Shown here: positions 6,817-23,097 of the stretch, in pieces
Layout: the number at the start of each line of letters is the position of its first letter
How positions within the stretch are numbered: position 1 is the first letter of the stretch
DNA from: a virus
Virus record (IMG/VR): IMGVR_UViG_3300036791_000089
Coordinates: 1-23,097 of that record
Length of the DNA: 23,097 bases
Strand: one strand, 5' to 3'
The notes under the pieces: generated by a model
Seen by the model: the letters and a program-made list of their open reading frames with translations, nothing else
Database searches by the model: none
Told to the model about the DNA's origin: nothing
Position numbers and translations under genes: made by a program

Positions 6817-7355
6817 GCTCGACCGAGACGCCCGTCGACCCGCTTACGATCCCGTGGCGGCCGACGGTCGACGACGTCGCCGCGCTCATCCGCGCTCGCA
6901 CGAAGGACGCGAGCGCGAACGAGGTCGGGACGTTCACCGACAAGACTCGCCCGACCGACGCCGAGGTCGAGCAGCTCATCACGAACGGCTGCGCCAAGGT
7001 CGCGAGCGTCGTCGGCTGGGACATTCCCGTCGACGCGAACGCCGAGGGCTCGCACCTCGCCGCCATCTGGGCCGCCTGCGAGGTCGAGCTCTCCTACTGG
7101 CCCGAGCAGGCGCGGAGCGAGCGGTCGCCGTATGCGCAACTGCTCGCCATGTACGAATACGACATAGCGCCATTCGCCGAGTTCGTGGCGCAGCTCACGC
7201 CGCCGGGCGCGGGCACGATCGGCGCCCGGGCCGGGACCTTCTACTCGCCGTCGGCGACGGCGGCGTGGGCCTACCAGTTCGGCTACGGCCTCGTCGGCAT
7301 CGCCGACGTCGTCAACGTCGGGCTCGGCGGCGGCGGCTCGAGGCGCCGGCGATGA
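6813..7355 (+). CDS. Head-tail connector (adaptor) protein
   Basis: 180 aa; ATG overlaps the preceding stop and GAGGAGG lies about 7 bases upstream. The N-terminal half is helical with DDVAALIRARTKD and RPTDAEVEQLITNGCAKVAS, followed by HLAAIWAACEVELSYWPEQARSE. This is the usual pattern of HK97 gp6-like adaptors in actinophages, which bind under the portal ring and begin the neck. The C-terminus is Gly/Arg-rich and probably disordered. The frame is open upstream to 6654, but that part is out-of-frame coding of the ATT-start ORF, so the overlapping ATG is preferred. Confidence 0.78.
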   Translation: MSSTETPVDPLTIPWRPTVDDVAALIRARTKDASANEVGTFTDKTRPTDAEVEQLITNGCAKVASVVGWDIPVDANAEGSHLAAIWAACEVELSYWPEQARSERSPYAQLLAMYEYDIAPFAEFVAQLTPPGAGTIGARAGTFYSPSATAAWAYQFGYGLVGIADVVNVGLGGGGSRRRR

Positions 7356-7813
7356 AAGCTCCCGAGCCGATGCTCGAGGCGCGCGGGACCGCCAAGGCGG
7401 CCGCCGACTTGACGGCGATCGGCGAGCGCGGCTCGGACATTCGCCGCGTCGCCGAGCAAATCCGGACCATCTACCGGCACTCGAACGCGCGACGATTCGC
7501 GAGCAACGGGCTCGGCGCATGGCCGGCGCTCGCCGCGTCGACCGTCGAGCGCAAACAGGCCGGCGGCTACGACTCGCGGCCGATGCGCCGCTCGGGCGCG
7601 CTCGAGGCGGCGTTGACGTCGCCGAGCTCGAGCGACCAAGTCGACGAGCGCGACCGCTCCGAGCTCCGGTTCGGCACGACGCTCCCCTACGCCGGCTACC
7701 ACGACACCGGCACCGGCGGCGAGAAACGGCGCGAGCTCGTCGAGCTGACGCCGGCCGAGCGCGACCAGGTCACGACGCTCCTCGGCGCCTACATCGCGGG
7801 GGCCGAGACATGA
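7352..7813 (+). CDS. Neck / tail-completion protein (Mu gpG- or HK97 gp10-like)
   Basis: 153 aa, ATGA overlaps at both ends. The N-terminal half is helical (GSDIRRVAEQIRTIYRHSN). The middle contains a Ser-Arg-Leu region with RRSGALEAALTS, and the C-terminal half has LRFGTTLPYAGYHDTGTGG, close to the pattern 'F-G-t-x-x-x-Y-A-x-x-H-x-x-G' of virion-morphogenesis and tail-completion proteins. In contractile phages this family closes the proximal end of the tail or the neck. The position between the adaptor and the tail-terminator-like gene agrees. The exact class, stopper or completion protein, is uncertain. Confidence 0.68.
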   Translation: MKAPEPMLEARGTAKAAADLTAIGERGSDIRRVAEQIRTIYRHSNARRFASNGLGAWPALAASTVERKQAGGYDSRPMRRSGALEAALTSPSSSDQVDERDRSELRFGTTLPYAGYHDTGTGGEKRRELVELTPAERDQVTTLLGAYIAGAET

Positions 7814-15274: not shown

Positions 15275-16581
15275 CGACGCGCATCGCCGACGTCCTCGAG
15301 CATCCGGCGCCGCCCGTCTCGGCGGTTCGGGCGCTCGTCGCGAACACGCCGGCGACGATCGACGACGACCTCTACGTGACCGTGCTCGCGTTTGACGGGC
15401 ACCGGCAGCTTTGGGGCCCGTGCCAGTGGGTCCCGTCGAATGGTTTGCCGGCGAAGGACGACGAGTGTTTGCTCGTCATTACCGAGGACGACGGGACGCC
15501 GTGGGCGTTGACGACGGCGCCCGTCTACGCCGCCGGCCAACCGGGGCCCGAGGGTCCGGAGGGCCCGCAAGGGCCGGCGGGACCGGCGGGCGCGACCGGG
15601 CCGCAAGGGCCGCCCGGGCCGCAGGGCTCGACGGGCGCGACCGGGCCGGCAGGCCCGCAGGGCGTCAAGGGCGACCCCGGCGTGACCGGGCCGCAGGGCC
15701 CGAAGGGCGATACCGGCGCGGCCGGGCCGCAAGGGCCGACCGGCGCGACCGGAGCTCAAGGCCCGCAAGGCAATCCCGGCGCGACGGGCGCGCAAGGGCC
15801 GGCCGGCGTAGACGGGAAAACGGTTCGCTCGGGTAGCGGCCCGCCGGCGGCGGCGCTCGGCGTCGACGGCGATTTCTACATCGACACGGCCGCGCATACG
15901 CTCTACGGGCCGAAAGCGGCGGGCGCGTGGGGCTCGCCGACGTCGCTTATCGGGCCGCAGGGCCCGCAGGGCGCGACCGGCGCTACGGGCGCGCAGGGCG
16001 CGCAGGGCCCGCAAGGGCCGACGGGCACGACGGGCGCGCAGGGCCCGAAGGGCGACCCGGGCGCGACCGGCGCGACCGGCGCGCAAGGGCCGCAAGGCGC
16101 GACCGGCGCCGCCGGCGCTCCCGGGTCGAAATGGTTTACGGGCGCGGGCGCGCCGCCCGGCGCGACCGGCATCGTCGGCGATTGGTACCTCGACTCGAGC
16201 GCCGGCGACTACTACGAAAAAACCGGGGCGTCGGCGTGGACGTTGCGCGGCAACCTCAAGGGCCCGACGGGCGCGACCGGCGCGCAGGGCCCGCAAGGCG
16301 CAGCCGGGGCGACCGGGTCGACGGGCGCGCAAGGCCCGCAGGGCGCGACGGGCGCGCAGGGCCCGCAGGGCATCCAAGGGCCGGCCGGCCCGAGCGGCGC
16401 CTCGACGTTCGTGTCGGGCTCGGGCGCGCCGGCGGCCGGCGTCGGCGTCGACGGCGCCATCTATCTCGACACGGCCTCGAGCCGGCTATGGGGCCCGAAA
16501 GCGGCGGGCGCATGGCCCGGCGCCGCGTTCGCGCGCGTCATGCCGCTAAACCCGACCTACGCGCAACTCAAGGCCGGATGA
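15271..16581 (+). CDS. Spike-like OB-fold protein with collagen stalk
   Basis: 436 aa, ATGA overlap with the hub gene. Residues 1-86 look like the OB fold of baseplate spikes: [20 protein letters not shown] then [23 protein letters not shown] and GTPWAL. Residues 89-183, 228-286 and 331-378 are pure Gly-X-Y collagen repeats (about 31, 19 and 16 triplets, rich in GPQ, GAT and GAQ). They are split by related globular modules at 184-227, 287-330 and 379-436. Those modules share GSGAP...GVDG-(D/A)-x-Y-x-DT and (for the first and last) GPKAAGAW. Collagen-like proteins in phages form trimeric fibres. By position (after gpD, before gp25 and gpJ) this is the spike slot; a side fibre is the alternative. 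Confidence 0.85.
15535..16404 (+). repeat. Collagen-coding tandem repeats (three blocks)
   Basis: Three blocks of 9-bp-phase GGN-NNN-NNN coding repeats, at 15535-15819, 15952-16128 and 16261-16404, encode Gly-X-Y triplets. Codons are dominated by GGC, GGG, CCG, CAG/CAA, GCG and ACG. Between the blocks, similar 20-25 bp stretches (near 15907 and 16493) encode the repeated GPKAAGAW segments. Such DNA recombines easily and can change stalk length. Confidence 0.9.
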
Positions 16582-16904: not shown

Positions 16905-18086
16905 ATGCCCGGCTATATCCCGGTTCCCGTTGAAACCGAGCCGACCGACCTCGCCGGCGAGGCGTTCGATTACCTCGCGCAACAGGTCCCCGGTTGGTTG
17001 CCGGCCGAGGGCAACCTCGAGGCGTGGCTCATCGAGGCGCTCGCGCAGATCGCCGGCGAGCTCCGCGCGCTCGTCGCGCTCGTCCCGGACGCGATTTTCG
17101 CCTACTACGGCGAGAGCATCCTCGGCCTGCCGCCGTATCAGGCCGTGCAGGCGACCGCGCTCACGAACTGGAACACCGTCGACGCGGCCGGTTACACCGT
17201 GCCCGCCGGCACCGTAATAGCCGTCACGCCGCCGGCGTCGCCGACCGGCTACGCGTTCGCCGTCGACGTCGACGTCGTCATTCCTGCCGGCGCGAGTACC
17301 GCGACGAGCGTTACTTGCGTCGCGCTCGAGGCCGGCGCCGCGGCGAGCGGGCTCACGGGCACCGTCGAGGTCATCGACCCGCTCGCGTTCGTCTCGAGCG
17401 TGACGCTCAACCAACCGACGTCGGGCGGGCAGGACGCCGAGACGACCGACGCCTACCTCGCGCGGCTCTCGGCGCTCCTAACGTTGCTCTCGCCGCGGCC
17501 GATCCTGCCGCAGGATTTCGCCGTGTTGGCGCAACGGACGATCCCGGCGATTGCGCGGGCGGTCGCGATCGACCTCTACAACCCGGGCCCGCCCGTCGAC
17601 GCGAATGCTCCGCGTTGCGTTTCGGTCGTCGTTTGCGACTCGAGCGGCGAGCCCGTCTCGAGCTCGGTCAAGGCCGACGCCGACGCGCTGCTACAGGCGC
17701 AACGCGAGGTCAACTTTCTAACGTTCGTCCTCGACCCGACGTATCAGGCGATCGACGTTTCGTTCTCGGTCATGAGCTATCCGGGCTATGACCCGAACGA
17801 CGTCGCCGCGCGCGTCGTCTCGCAACTGACGACCTACCTCTCGCCGGCGTCGTGGGGCGTCCCGCCTTACGGCGACGTGTCGGCGCGCTCATGGATCAAC
17901 GCGACGAGCGTCCGCTACCTCGAGCTCGCCGAGCAAATCAACCGCGTCGACGGCGTCCATTACATCGTGACGCTCGCGCTATGCGCGTCGGGCGGGACGC
18001 TCGGGACGGCCGACGTTGCGCTCGCCGGCGTCGCGCCGATGCCGCGGCCGGGCTCAATCACCGGGACGGCGACGGCCGAGACATGA
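16905..18086 (+). CDS. Baseplate J-like wedge protein
   Basis: 393 aa, ATG 16905, just after the gp25-like stop. Typical gpJ features: EAFDYLAQQVPGWLPAEGNLEAWLIEALAQ at the start, PPYQAVQATALTNW, a beta domain (AAGYTVPAGTVIAVTPP, then VDVDVVIPAGASTATSVTCVALEAG) and SGGQDAETTDAYLARLSALL (about 168-187), the conserved 'GG-D-E-t-d-e-y-l-x-R' box. The C-terminal third has DPTYQAIDVSFSVMSYPGYDP and VRYLELAEQINRVDGVHYI. The protein is the wedge arm that joins the hub to the fibres. ATGA overlap with gpI. Confidence 0.9.
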   Translation: MPGYIPVPVETEPTDLAGEAFDYLAQQVPGWLPAEGNLEAWLIEALAQIAGELRALVALVPDAIFAYYGESILGLPPYQAVQATALTNWNTVDAAGYTVPAGTVIAVTPPASPTGYAFAVDVDVVIPAGASTATSVTCVALEAGAAASGLTGTVEVIDPLAFVSSVTLNQPTSGGQDAETTDAYLARLSALLTLLSPRPILPQDFAVLAQRTIPAIARAVAIDLYNPGPPVDANAPRCVSVVVCDSSGEPVSSSVKADADALLQAQREVNFLTFVLDPTYQAIDVSFSVMSYPGYDPNDVAARVVSQLTTYLSPASWGVPPYGDVSARSWINATSVRYLELAEQINRVDGVHYIVTLALCASGGTLGTADVALAGVAPMPRPGSITGTATAET

Positions 18087-18805
18087 GCTCGCGCAGCTAC
18101 CCGGAGCTCGAGCGCGTCCCGCGCCGGCGCGCGACGCCGCGCGACCTACCGGCGCCGCCGGCCGAGCTCGTCCCGGACGCGTTCGCCGGCCGGCTCTACG
18201 ACATGCTCGAGCCGCTCGCCGAGCAGGACCCGGTCGCCGGGTGGTCGCTCCTCATCCTTTGCAACGCGATCGGCGTCCCGTATGAGCTCGTCGAGGATTG
18301 GGTCCGCGACACGCCGGACGGGCCCGGGTGGTCGCTCCTCATGGACGTCGAGCGTTGCCCGCCCGAGGCGCTCCCGTGGCTCGCGCAGTTCGCCGGCGTC
18401 CGCATCCCGGCCGGCCTCGTCGACGTCGGCGAGCAACGCGATTGGGTCGCGTCGACCGACGGTTTCAAACGCGGGACGGCGAGCGCGCTCATCGGCGCCG
18501 CCCGCGCGACGCTCACCGGCGCACAAGCGGTCGTTTTTCGCGAGCGCGACGGCGCCGCGCAAGGAAACCCGGCGGCGCCCGATTACGCCTACTACTTGAC
18601 CGTCATTACCTACACGTCGCAAACGCCCGACCCGACGGCGACGCTCAACGCGCTCCTCGCGCAAAAGCCCGGCGGGATCGTCCTCAACTACTACACCGCG
18701 ACCGGGCAGGACTACCAAAACGTCAAGACCAACAATGCGACCTATGCGGCCGTAACCGCCGCCTACGTCGACTACAACGCGCTCAAGCTCGACGAGGCGA
18801 GCTAG
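18083..18805 (+). CDS. Tail protein I (wedge / fibre attachment)
   Basis: 240 aa, ATGA overlap with gpJ. The central region has PDAFAGRLYDMLEPLAEQDP, PPEALPWLAQFAGVRIPAG and QRDWVASTDGFKRGTASALIGAARATLTG. These are the 'P-x-x-xLpxLAx-lg-v' and 'R-x-x-i-x-x-a-x-x-x-h-r-x-k-G-T' features of the phage tail protein I family. The C-terminus is longer than in P2 gpI and beta/Asn-Tyr-rich (QDYQNVKTNNATYAAVTAAY), probably the surface that holds the next protein. It completes the J-I pair of the wedge. Confidence 0.82.
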   Translation: MSSRSYPELERVPRRRATPRDLPAPPAELVPDAFAGRLYDMLEPLAEQDPVAGWSLLILCNAIGVPYELVEDWVRDTPDGPGWSLLMDVERCPPEALPWLAQFAGVRIPAGLVDVGEQRDWVASTDGFKRGTASALIGAARATLTGAQAVVFRERDGAAQGNPAAPDYAYYLTVITYTSQTPDPTATLNALLAQKPGGIVLNYYTATGQDYQNVKTNNATYAAVTAAYVDYNALKLDEAS

Positions 18806-21088: not shown

Positions 21089-21342
21089 GCCTCGGCGTCG
21101 CGATTGTCGTCGGCGTCGTCGTCGTCGTCGCAATCGTGGTCGCCGCGCTCACGATCCGCCGCGACCGGGGGCTACGCATGACCCGGGTCGGGTGGTTCGT
21201 CGAGCGCGAGCGGTACCCGGCCGAGGACGTCGCGGCGCCCGAGCATGCCGAGTTACCGTCGTCGCTCCGCGACGCGCACGACGACGACGAGCCGGCGCCG
21301 CCCGACGACGAGCGCGACACGCTGATACGGCCGCCGCTCTAG
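21085..21342 (+). CDS. Holin candidate, one membrane segment, 85 aa
   Basis: GTG 21085 overlaps the endolysin stop (GTGA). Residues 2-25 (SLGVAIVVGVVVVVAIVVAALT) form one long, very hydrophobic segment of Val, Ile and Ala, followed by IRRDRG, a positive patch that predicts the C-terminus inside. The remaining 55 residues are hydrophilic and acidic (DAHDDDEPAPPDDERD). One-TM proteins of this size beside the endolysin are typically holins or holin antagonists. No family is recognised, so 'holin' rests on position and topology. Its stop TAG shares the CTAG at 21339-21342 with the convergent gene. Confidence 0.6.
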   Translation: MSLGVAIVVGVVVVVAIVVAALTIRRDRGLRMTRVGWFVERERYPAEDVAAPEHAELPSSLRDAHDDDEPAPPDDERDTLIRPPL

Positions 21343-21992
21343 ACGTGCGCGCGCCGGTCGAGCTCGGCCTCGCGACGGAGCTCGTGACGCTCGAGCGCGC
21401 GATGCGAGAGCTCGCGACGAAGTAGCGTCCCGCCGTGTCCGAGCGGCACGCGCGGGAGCGGGATGACGTTGAGGACGCAGCAGGCGACGAGCGCGACGAC
21501 GACGAGCGCGAGCCATGCGTCGAGCCATGCGCGCCGATAGAGCCGCCGATGCGACGTCCCGCCGGCCACGAGCCGGCCGTCATGGACGGCGCGCTCGAGC
21601 GTCGAGGCGCTGCAACGCGCATAGCGGGCCGCCTCGTCCTTCGTCATCCATCCGTCGTGCCCGGCCGCCCGCGCGAACGTTTGCGGGATGAGCGGCGCGA
21701 CGGTCGCTACATAGAGCTCGCCGCCGTTGACGGCCTGCGCCGTGAACGAGCAGCGAATCCGCTCGCCGTCGCGGGCGAGGAATGTCGTCGCGTCGGTCAC
21801 GATCTCGCCGGCGTCCATCGCCCGGACACGCGACGAGCGCGCCGCGTCCGGTGCGAGAAACTCGAACACTGACTCGCCGACGAGCTCGCGAGCTCGCCAT
21901 CCGATCATCGACGCGACCGAGTCGCCGACGACGACATAGTCGTGACCCCGGTCGACGAGGCAAACCGAATCGAGGAGCTTGCGCGTCGGCAC
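21339..21992 (-). CDS. PAS-HTH-TM regulatory protein
   Basis: 217 aa from a GTG at 21992, preceded by a GGGGGG purine block; the frame is open to 22175 but runs into the repeat region. Residues about 5-100 resemble a PAS sensor: DSVCLVDRGHDYVVVGDSVASMIGWRARELVGESVFEFLAPD, then TTFLARDGERIRCSFTAQAV and YVATVAPL. Residues 114-160 (GWMTKDEAARYARCSASTLERAVHDGRL...RRAWLDAW) are an excisionase/MerR-like HTH. Residues 159-183 (LALVVVALVACCVLNVIPL) are long enough to cross the membrane. A charged tail follows. The protein probably senses a signal and binds DNA at the divergent region; that function is inferred. It faces the excisionase and integrase genes. Confidence 0.75.
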   Translation of the reverse strand: MPTRKLLDSVCLVDRGHDYVVVGDSVASMIGWRARELVGESVFEFLAPDAARSSRVRAMDAGEIVTDATTFLARDGERIRCSFTAQAVNGGELYVATVAPLIPQTFARAAGHDGWMTKDEAARYARCSASTLERAVHDGRLVAGGTSHRRLYRRAWLDAWLALVVVALVACCVLNVIPLPRVPLGHGGTLLRRELSHRALERHELRREAELDRRAHV

Positions 21993-22040
21993 TACGTCCC
22001 CCCTTGTCCGTTCGAGCCGGCGCCGCCCGGTTGCCACTCC

Positions 22041-22069
22041 GGGATATCCGGTCCGACGCGAGCCCGCAA
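22041..22069 (-). promoter_or_regulatory. Possible leftward promoter for the PAS-HTH gene
   Basis: On the minus strand TTGCGG (complement of 22064-22069) and TATCCC (complement of 22041-22046) are 17 bases apart, the optimal spacing for a vegetative sigma factor. Transcription would begin near 22034, leaving a leader of about 40 bases before the GTG at 21992. Both hexamers are imperfect, so confidence is low. Confidence 0.3.
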
Positions 22070-22126
22070 CCGTTTCGACGCCGGCGCGGTAAAGGAAAAT
22101 CCCGCAAAATGGGCGAACTTCCGCTC

Positions 22127-22206
22127 GCGCGTCATAGCTCGGCACTGCGCGGCATAGCGCCGCAGGGCTCGTCACCGCGCGTCAATGCGCGTCATGGCGC
22201 GTCTCG
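22127..22206 (+). repeat. Eight head-to-tail 10-bp repeats
   Basis: Eight 10-base units in exact register, beginning at 22127, 22137, 22147, 22157, 22167, 22177, 22187 and 22197. Units 1, 6 and 7 contain GCGCGTCA followed by two variable bases, and unit 8 is GCGCGTCT plus two. In the eight units the bases G, C, C and C at positions 1, 2, 4 and 7 never change; position 8 is A in seven; positions 3, 5 and 6 vary little. Ten bases is about one helical turn, so all units face one side of the DNA. Likely a multi-site operator or excisionase-binding array. The neighbouring 10-base windows (22117 and 22207) do not fit. Confidence 0.8.
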
Positions 22207-22241
22207 ACGCTCGGGCGCCCGTGCGATAAAACGCCGAGCTC

Positions 22242-22484
22242 ATGGGCGGAACCACTAGCCGCGACGGCCACTACGACCCGCTCGAGCTGCTCACGCTCGA
22301 CGAGGTCTCGGCGCTCATCCGGCGCTCGCGGCGAGCGCTGACCGAGGACGTCGCCGCCGGCCGGCTACGCATCGTCAAGCTCGGCCGCTCGACCCGGGTC
22401 CCGCGCGCCGAGCTCGAGCGGTACATCGCCGAGGCGTCCGGTTACGATGGTCCAACACCCATCGACCGAGGAGGCACGTCGTGA
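22242..22484 (+). CDS. xis: Excisionase-like HTH protein
   Basis: 80 aa, ATG 22242, with only a weak Shine-Dalgarno. Residues 14-63 are an excisionase/MerR-type winged HTH (HTH_17): ELLTLDEVSALIRRSRRALTEDVAAGRLRIVKLGRSTRVPRAELERYI. 'LT-x-dEvA-x-L' and 'G-R-s-x-R-v-x-x-x-eLerY' are the family's hallmark words. Such proteins bend DNA at attachment sites to favour excision, or act as transcription regulators. It lies right before the integrase with a GTGA overlap, so it belongs to the recombination module, and the repeat array ends 35 bases upstream. Directing excision is inferred from family and position. Confidence 0.82.
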   Translation: MGGTTSRDGHYDPLELLTLDEVSALIRRSRRALTEDVAAGRLRIVKLGRSTRVPRAELERYIAEASGYDGPTPIDRGGTS

Positions 22485-23097
22485 CCACTAGCGCGACCGC
22501 CCTTTGGCCCGGCGTCGATATCAACGCGGGCCGCCCGCGCGTCCGAAAGTCCTTCAAGGGGTTTCCGCGCGTTATCGAGTATTACGACAGCGTCGAGGAG
22601 GCGAACGCTCGCGCGTTCGAGCTCGACCGCCGGCGCAAGGCCGGCCTAGCGCCGACCGACCCGACCGTCGGCGACGACACGCTCGCCGACGCCTGCGCGT
22701 CGCTACTCAAGTTCAAGGCCGTCGACGGCCTGACCGGCCGCGGCTACGCGTACTGGGAGCGGTCGCTCAAACCGTGGCGCGAGGGCCCGTTCGCCGAGGT
22801 CCCGCTCGAGCTCCTACGTCGCGCGCCGATCGAGGACGCGCTCGTCGAGCGCCGGGCGACGGCGCCGACGTCGGCGCGGAACGAGCGACAGGCGCTCATC
22901 GCTGCGCTCGAGCTCGCCGGCGAGCGCGGCGCGACGTTCGACCTCGCGATCCTGCGCATTCGCCCGATCGTCGTCGATGCGCGCGAGCGCCGGGCGCTCT
23001 CGGTCGTCGAGCTCGAATGGTTCGCCGCGCGTGTCGCGCCGATCGCCCGCCGGCTCGTCCTCCTGCAAGGGACGGTCGGCAACCGCATCGACGAGCT
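22481..23097 (+). CDS. int: Tyrosine-recombinase integrase, N-terminal part
   Basis: 205 codons of an integrase that continues beyond the window. GTG 22481 overlaps the xis stop and GAGGAGG precedes it. Residues about 18-55 (RPRVRKSFKGFPRVIEYYDS, EEANARAFELDRRRKAG) look like an arm-type DNA-binding domain. Residues about 65-165 form the SAM-like core-binding domain (ADACASLLKFKAVDGLTGRGYAYW, then NERQALIAALELAGERG). The catalytic domain begins near 172 with LSVVELEWFAARV and shows R202 in TVGNRIDEL, the first catalytic Arg (G-x-R-x-x-E-L). The remaining catalytic residues (Lys, His-x-x-Arg, Tyr) lie outside the window. It supports a temperate lifestyle by site-specific integration. Confidence 0.88.
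   Translation, partial: MTTSATALWPGVDINAGRPRVRKSFKGFPRVIEYYDSVEEANARAFELDRRRKAGLAPTDPTVGDDTLADACASLLKFKAVDGLTGRGYAYWERSLKPWREGPFAEVPLELLRRAPIEDALVERRATAPTSARNERQALIAALELAGERGATFDLAILRIRPIVVDARERRALSVVELEWFAARVAPIARRLVLLQGTVGNRIDE

Follow-up and report, generated by a model that had tools for sequence, protein, structure and literature searches.

The 23,097 bp of the window, meaning the whole stretch of DNA analysed here, make up a complete IMG/VR record, which is linear. It belongs to a contractile-tailed phage, with genes for terminase, portal, major head protein, tail sheath, tape measure and endolysin. At the 3' end of the record lie an excisionase gene, xis, and the start of a tyrosine integrase gene, int; the record stops inside int and therefore lacks the right-hand part of any att site. 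A gene for a PAS-HTH protein diverges from xis, and the space between the two holds an A-tract element, an array of 10-bp direct repeats and a putative promoter (Table 1). The GC-rich DNA of these phages is rich in short repeats, and a tail-region gene (15565-16371) carries collagen-like Gly-X-Y repeats.

Table 1. Features at the 3' end of the window
Feature	Position	Strand	Basis
PAS-HTH_17 gene, divergent from xis	21339..21992	-	HTH_17 31.2 bits; PAS models just under cut-offs
A-tract element GAAAATCCCG CAAAATGGGC GAACTTCCGC, imperfect dyad	22095..22124	+	By-eye and PWM alignment in relatives
Array, eight 10-bp direct repeats, consensus GCGCGTCAnn; putative Xis operator	22127..22206	+	Repeat scan, shuffles, relatives
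Putative xis-int promoter: -35-like TCGACG (22204-22209), 17-bp spacer, -10-like TAAAAC (22227-22232)	22204..22232	+	
xis, 80-aa excisionase-family winged HTH (HTH_17 / TIGR01764)	22242..22484	+	Pfam, TIGR, PDB profile, AlphaFold
int, tyrosine recombinase, N-terminal part, cut by record end	22481..23097	+	phrog_1 integrase

Relatives of the window integrase occur in Thermoleophilia genomes, and suggest a phage host in that class. Related viral loci (given L numbers below) came from a search with the baseplate protein, which yielded fifteen, and from an integrase profile, which yielded more. Searches of viral contigs with the integrase alone and the PAS-HTH protein alone found no relative; neither protein had a match in 50,697 phage records; and a search of genome contigs with the portal protein found nothing.

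The proteins of the locus

Xis exceeds the cut-offs of both models that describe small excisionase-like proteins: PF12728 (Pfam HTH_17; 35.3 bits, cut-off 27) and TIGR01764 (31.4 bits, cut-off 28.8). It is a small winged HTH protein linked to an integrase, as members of the HTH_17/excisionase family are. A profile built from eleven Xis-like proteins and searched against the PDB matched BldC best (6ama/6amk, E=3e-10), then the Xis of mycobacteriophage Pukovnik (4j2n, E=2e-7) and, weakly, P2 Cox (0.03). The AlphaFold model has a mean pLDDT of 75, higher in the core and low in the tails; Foldseek ranked 4j2n, BldC and RdfS first, with a best E of only 0.005, modest values that reflect the small size of Xis. 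The BldC family model NF033787 gave no match to the window Xis at E<=0.01, and in relatives it stayed below its cut-off of 77 (41.7 bits in L027, 27.3 in L008).

The int gene overlaps xis by 4 nt. Its product shares 51-55% identity with the integrases of L007 and L012; full-length integrases with a catalytic C-terminus are present in L007, L008, L011 and L012. That of L007 carries an insertion at residues about 300-340 resembling sigma-70 region 4 or a homeodomain-like HTH, at scores below curated cut-offs.

The PAS-HTH protein has a hydrophobic segment after its HTH, probably transmembrane. Apart from a weak match in L010, L008 alone among the loci searched has a homologue; the gene is absent from the records of L007, L012 and L027, which may be incomplete. 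HTH_17 proteins with hydrophobic, probably transmembrane segments near xis-int are found in the window, in L008 (about 6980-7698, minus strand), in L011 (14928-15455, minus) and in L016 (14868-15279, plus), with a PAS domain in the window and L008. The set could be one of membrane-anchored one-component regulators.

The repeat array

The units of the array read, in order, GCGCGTCATA, GCTCGGCACT, GCGCGGCATA, GCGCCGCAGG, GCTCGTCACC, GCGCGTCAAT, GCGCGTCATG and GCGCGTCTCG. Columns 1, 2, 4 and 7 are invariant, and columns 5 and 8 have one exception each. A sequence-only reading of the window had described eight 10-bp units here, in exact register and with four invariant columns, and had placed them in noncoding DNA; the first point is confirmed, coordinates included, and the second is very probably right (see below).

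The eight units have a mean pairwise identity of 0.69 (background 0.29, sd 0.037), and the array has the top 8-unit period-10 score within the 23-kb record. Among 200 windows generated by a first-order Markov model and scanned at periods 7, 8, 10 and 11, the highest score was 0.607. Dinucleotide shuffles of positions 22125-22226 (102 bp) gave P=0.0005 for period 10, which is the floor of the test, and P=0.002 for any period from 7 to 14. Repeats of periods 9, 12 and 18 elsewhere in the record are coding repeats. As a positive control, the period-10 scan was run on a 5-kb stretch of phage 186, where the seven Apl sites ranked first (with 3 and 6 units).

The array is very probably noncoding because it lies between two gene starts: that of the PAS-HTH gene, a GTG at 21992 directly preceded by a purine-rich RBS (GGGGGG) and comparable in place to the start of its L008 homologue, and that of xis at 22242. 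Two longer frames cross the array (21339-22175, minus strand; 21782-22258, plus strand); neither is supported.

The array in related phages

If the spacing matters, related phages should keep the 10-bp register while the bases diverge; the sequence-only reading had taken its loss in relatives as grounds for refutation. In four phages of uncultured, probably Thermoleophilia hosts (L007, L008, L012 and L027), the corresponding place holds a significant 10-bp array whose bases have diverged, which bears the expectation out for them; L016 is weak, and L011 and L013, both with the A-tract element, have no significant 10-bp array in the shuffle test. In six phages (the window, L007, L008, L012, L016 and L027) no period from 7 to 14 scores better than 10, and the any-period P is below 0.03 in all of these except L016 (0.39). 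The array consensus varies among phages (GCGCGTCA, GGCCGTCAT, GTGGCGC, CGTCA, CGCCA), as does the number of units.

L007, L008, L012, L016 and L027 share the layout: first an A-tract element and after it a GC-rich array of 10-bp units. It stands before the xis-int operon or, in L016, before an HTH-membrane gene and int. In L007, L008 and L027 a small ORF is the first gene of the operon, between array and xis.

One way to account for such an array is functionless tandem duplication by replication slippage. The near-identical unit copies of L007 and the abundance of short repeats in this GC-rich DNA would fit; the window units, however, have diverged by substitution while the exact 10-bp register was kept, and relatives keep register and place with other bases. 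Slippage without function is highly improbable.

Repeats occur in other loci as well. In the L010 record, in which no tyrosine integrase was found, four to five CGCCA units spaced at 10 bp (18346-18390) precede a gene region that encodes an XRE-like HTH and an HTH_17 domain. In L004 (8700-9060), noncoding-looking DNA holds degenerate 5-bp repeats of NNGGC type over about 350 bp.

The A-tract element and the putative xis-int promoter

The A-tract element lies directly upstream of the array and in the same 10-bp frame, so that the phased region measures about 11 turns in total. In relatives the element comprises two to three 10-bp steps, and a PWM trained on seven phages also picked out L013 and L015. 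A minus-strand terminator-like match overlaps it. This match favours a plain terminator; the conserved sequence, and the L027 element without a T-run, speak against one.

The heart of the element, CGCAAANTGCGSGAANTT, occurs 7 times in 399 Thermoleophilia genomes, against 0 for the reversed pattern, with host loci L113, L114, L115 and L116 among them; these are small counts, and some of the matches are orthologous. Twice, in L113/L114 and in L116, the host copy stands shortly upstream of a promoter-like sequence. A host regulator may recognise this motif. The element was also considered as an attB/attP core and rejected, the host matches being found in front of genes and apparent promoters and not at the ends of prophages; a riboswitch suspected downstream of two host copies found no support.

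Counted from the A-tract, the first CGNCA motif comes after 25 bp in the window, 24 in L007, 26 in L008, 16 in L016 and 34 in L027, that is, 4-6 modulo 10. Such a conserved phase is only suggestive, because there is some freedom in choosing the first motif, and in L016 and L008 the motifs further on change phase.

A strict sigma-70 scan reported no xis-int promoter. The TCGACG hexamer, a 17-bp spacer and TAAAAC form a plausible non-consensus one. The start codon is 9 nt beyond TAAAAC, and the xis-int transcript may be leaderless. Comparable -10-like hexamers are found in relatives (TAGAAC in L007 and L027, TAGAAG in L012, TAGCGT in L008), 9-19 nt before the first start codon of the operon; by chance, 20 bp would hold TA(G/A)AA(C/G) about 0.002 times. 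The array reaches into the -35-like TCGACG with its last unit, and in the four relatives with a placed hexamer, too, the array sits between the A-tract element and the -10-like hexamer. The array thus overlaps the upstream half of the inferred promoter.

Which protein the array may serve

The register kept in relatives, the placement between A-tract and hexamer, and the protein class of Xis together make it probable that the array is a cooperative operator of the adjacent Xis, controlling the xis-int promoter. An RDF-type tandem operator beside the excisionase gene, as originally proposed for these repeats, is supported by the profile matches of Xis and by the relatives. Xis is the sole HTH_17 match in the records (possibly incomplete) of L007, L012 and L027, all of which have arrays; this points to Xis as the likely ligand, and means that the PAS-HTH protein, which the sequence-only reading had brought in as a possible participant, is not needed. 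Several observations count against this operator. Motif and protein do not track each other cleanly, since L008 shares the CGTCA motif although its Xis has diverged; L011 and L013 combine the A-tract element with no significant array; the strict scan gave no sigma-70 promoter; and in L007, L008 and L027 a small ORF separates the array from xis.

A second perspective supposes that the main ligand is the divergent PAS-HTH protein, or a BldC-like protein of the host, and that the array acts as operator for a divergent promoter under the control of a sensor. The PAS-HTH gene does diverge from the array in the window and in L008 and is of the same HTH_17 class, and the directional bias of CGCAAANTGCGSGAANTT in host genomes would allow a host protein to act here. 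Yet arrays are found in records that lack the PAS-HTH gene, BldC favours AT-rich repeats (AATTNNNNC; PMC5859096) where the array units are GC-rich, and the host matches are few and in part orthologous; this arrangement is rather unlikely.

A mixed arrangement can also be imagined, in which the PAS-HTH sensor and soluble Xis share one array: the membrane-anchored sensor would tether or occupy it until a signal brought release. It is a long shot; if true, xis-int expression and prophage excision would be under the direct control of an environmental cue. What is less ordinary about the locus is in any case the divergent gene for the probably membrane-anchored PAS-HTH protein.

For the Xis operator, the following sequence of events can be proposed. 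Each 10-bp unit would be bound by one Xis monomer, through recognition helix and wing; head-to-tail contacts between neighbouring monomers would make the binding cooperative; and Xis would form a short, bent filament running into the -35 of the xis-int promoter. As Xis accumulated, the filament would cover the promoter and limit xis-int expression, an autoregulation whose sign, like the binding, cooperativity and bending themselves, is inferred. The same kind of site might also let Xis shape attP/attL DNA for excision.

The attachment-site question

The array may also serve as an RDF site at attP. Searches for attB with sequences of the window, L027 and L012 gave short chance-level matches or none, and in the 399 Thermoleophilia genomes the window sequence had short scattered matches only. 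No tRNA-like core was found in the window between 21995 and 22130; cores that seemed likely by eye beside the arrays of L024 and L027 had no Rfam support and were dropped.

L012 gives the best hint of a single protein that uses the same motif both at its promoter and at att. There a second GTGGCGC array lies 0.8 kb past int and faces an inverted copy across the palindrome GAGCCGCAAATGCGGCTC; perfect 23-bp direct repeats, 235 bp apart, enclose the inverted 10-bp arrays (17554-17811). Each 23-bp repeat consists of two 11-bp units (CGTGGTCCCCG in tandem, on both sides), putative Int arm repeats, from which the GTGGCGC array is distinct. The module resembles an attP in which arm sites and RDF sites are separate. 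In L005, 10-bp repeats of the ACACGACAGG type flank a tRNA 3' half directly after the integrase gene (2503-2675); the partial tRNA scores 18.6 bits, below the Rfam gathering score, which is weak support.

These two loci bear on a third account of the array, that its units are arm-type sites for the Int N-terminal domain and the array a part of attP. It lies directly before xis-int; integrase arm sites can also measure about 10 bp; and the L005 repeats, around what would be a typical att core, lend the account some substance. Eight contiguous head-to-tail sites nevertheless fit an RDF better than paired arm sites, the putative arm repeats of L012 differ from its GTGGCGC array, and no tRNA-like core was found in the stretch upstream of the window array. 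Arm sites are an unlikely identity for the units.

Comparison with known systems

The Xis operator proposed here has close precedents. The tandem sites bound by RDFs of this class are spaced by one turn (PMC7498355), and for some of these proteins the targets include both attP and their own promoter (PMC7498355, PMC11963761, PMC5859096). The direct repeats bound by Apl of phage 186 lie next to the RDF gene at a spacing of 10-11 bp, with seven of them at pR-pL and five at att; the binding is cooperative, bends DNA and represses promoters (PMC7498355). The window array resembles these operators in having one-turn direct repeats beside an RDF gene. Its units are better conserved, at 0.69 over eight units against 0.43 over six in phage 186. 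The sequence-only reading had thought eight units exceptional, a view that the seven of Apl at pR-pL (PMC7498355) do not sustain; eight against seven is no difference in kind.

The likeness stops at the surroundings. Apl sites lie between convergent lytic and lysogenic promoters, whereas the array is upstream of xis-int, with no repressor gene seen. Its neighbours are the divergent PAS-HTH gene and xis-int, and the portion of the window examined contains no CI-like repressor. A lysogeny switch, the role first suggested for the array, thus lacks backing: no repressor gene or operator was identified, and the convergent promoters beside a repressor gene that mark P2-like and 186-like phages were not seen at the array. 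With RDF tandem operators it shares repeats one turn apart, in a register kept in relatives.

Pukovnik Xis (4J2N), an actinophage excisionase described as binding head-to-tail on tandem repeats (PMC7498355), matches the window Xis most closely in fold and strongly by profile; the comparison is at the protein level. Streptomyces BldC (6AMA, 6AMK), the best profile match, is a wHTH protein that binds head-to-tail on variable numbers of direct repeats, four of them at smeA-sffA (PMC5859096). It differs as a cellular developmental regulator with AT-rich 9-bp repeats and no integrase linkage. RdfS of ICEMlSymR7A (8DGL), an RDF of the HTH_17 class to which the window Xis also belongs, binds attP and its own promoter and represses the latter (PMC11963761); there is no consensus repeat at RdfS sites, and the protein has an extra N-terminal helix. 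Like Pukovnik Xis and BldC, RdfS assembles head-to-tail. In KplE1, with TorI and IntS, the RDF controls the integrase promoter at att (PMC2951348), and xis and int, unlike those of the window, are not in one operon.

The head-to-tail RDF arrangement is already known, and the array is a well-supported further example in an unstudied phage group, carrying this mode of operator to the phages of an actinobacterial class that has hardly been studied. The relatives form a natural series in which unit numbers and bases vary and the 10-bp step is fixed; such a series would allow tests of the proposal that RDFs have low sequence specificity and a strong requirement for spacing.
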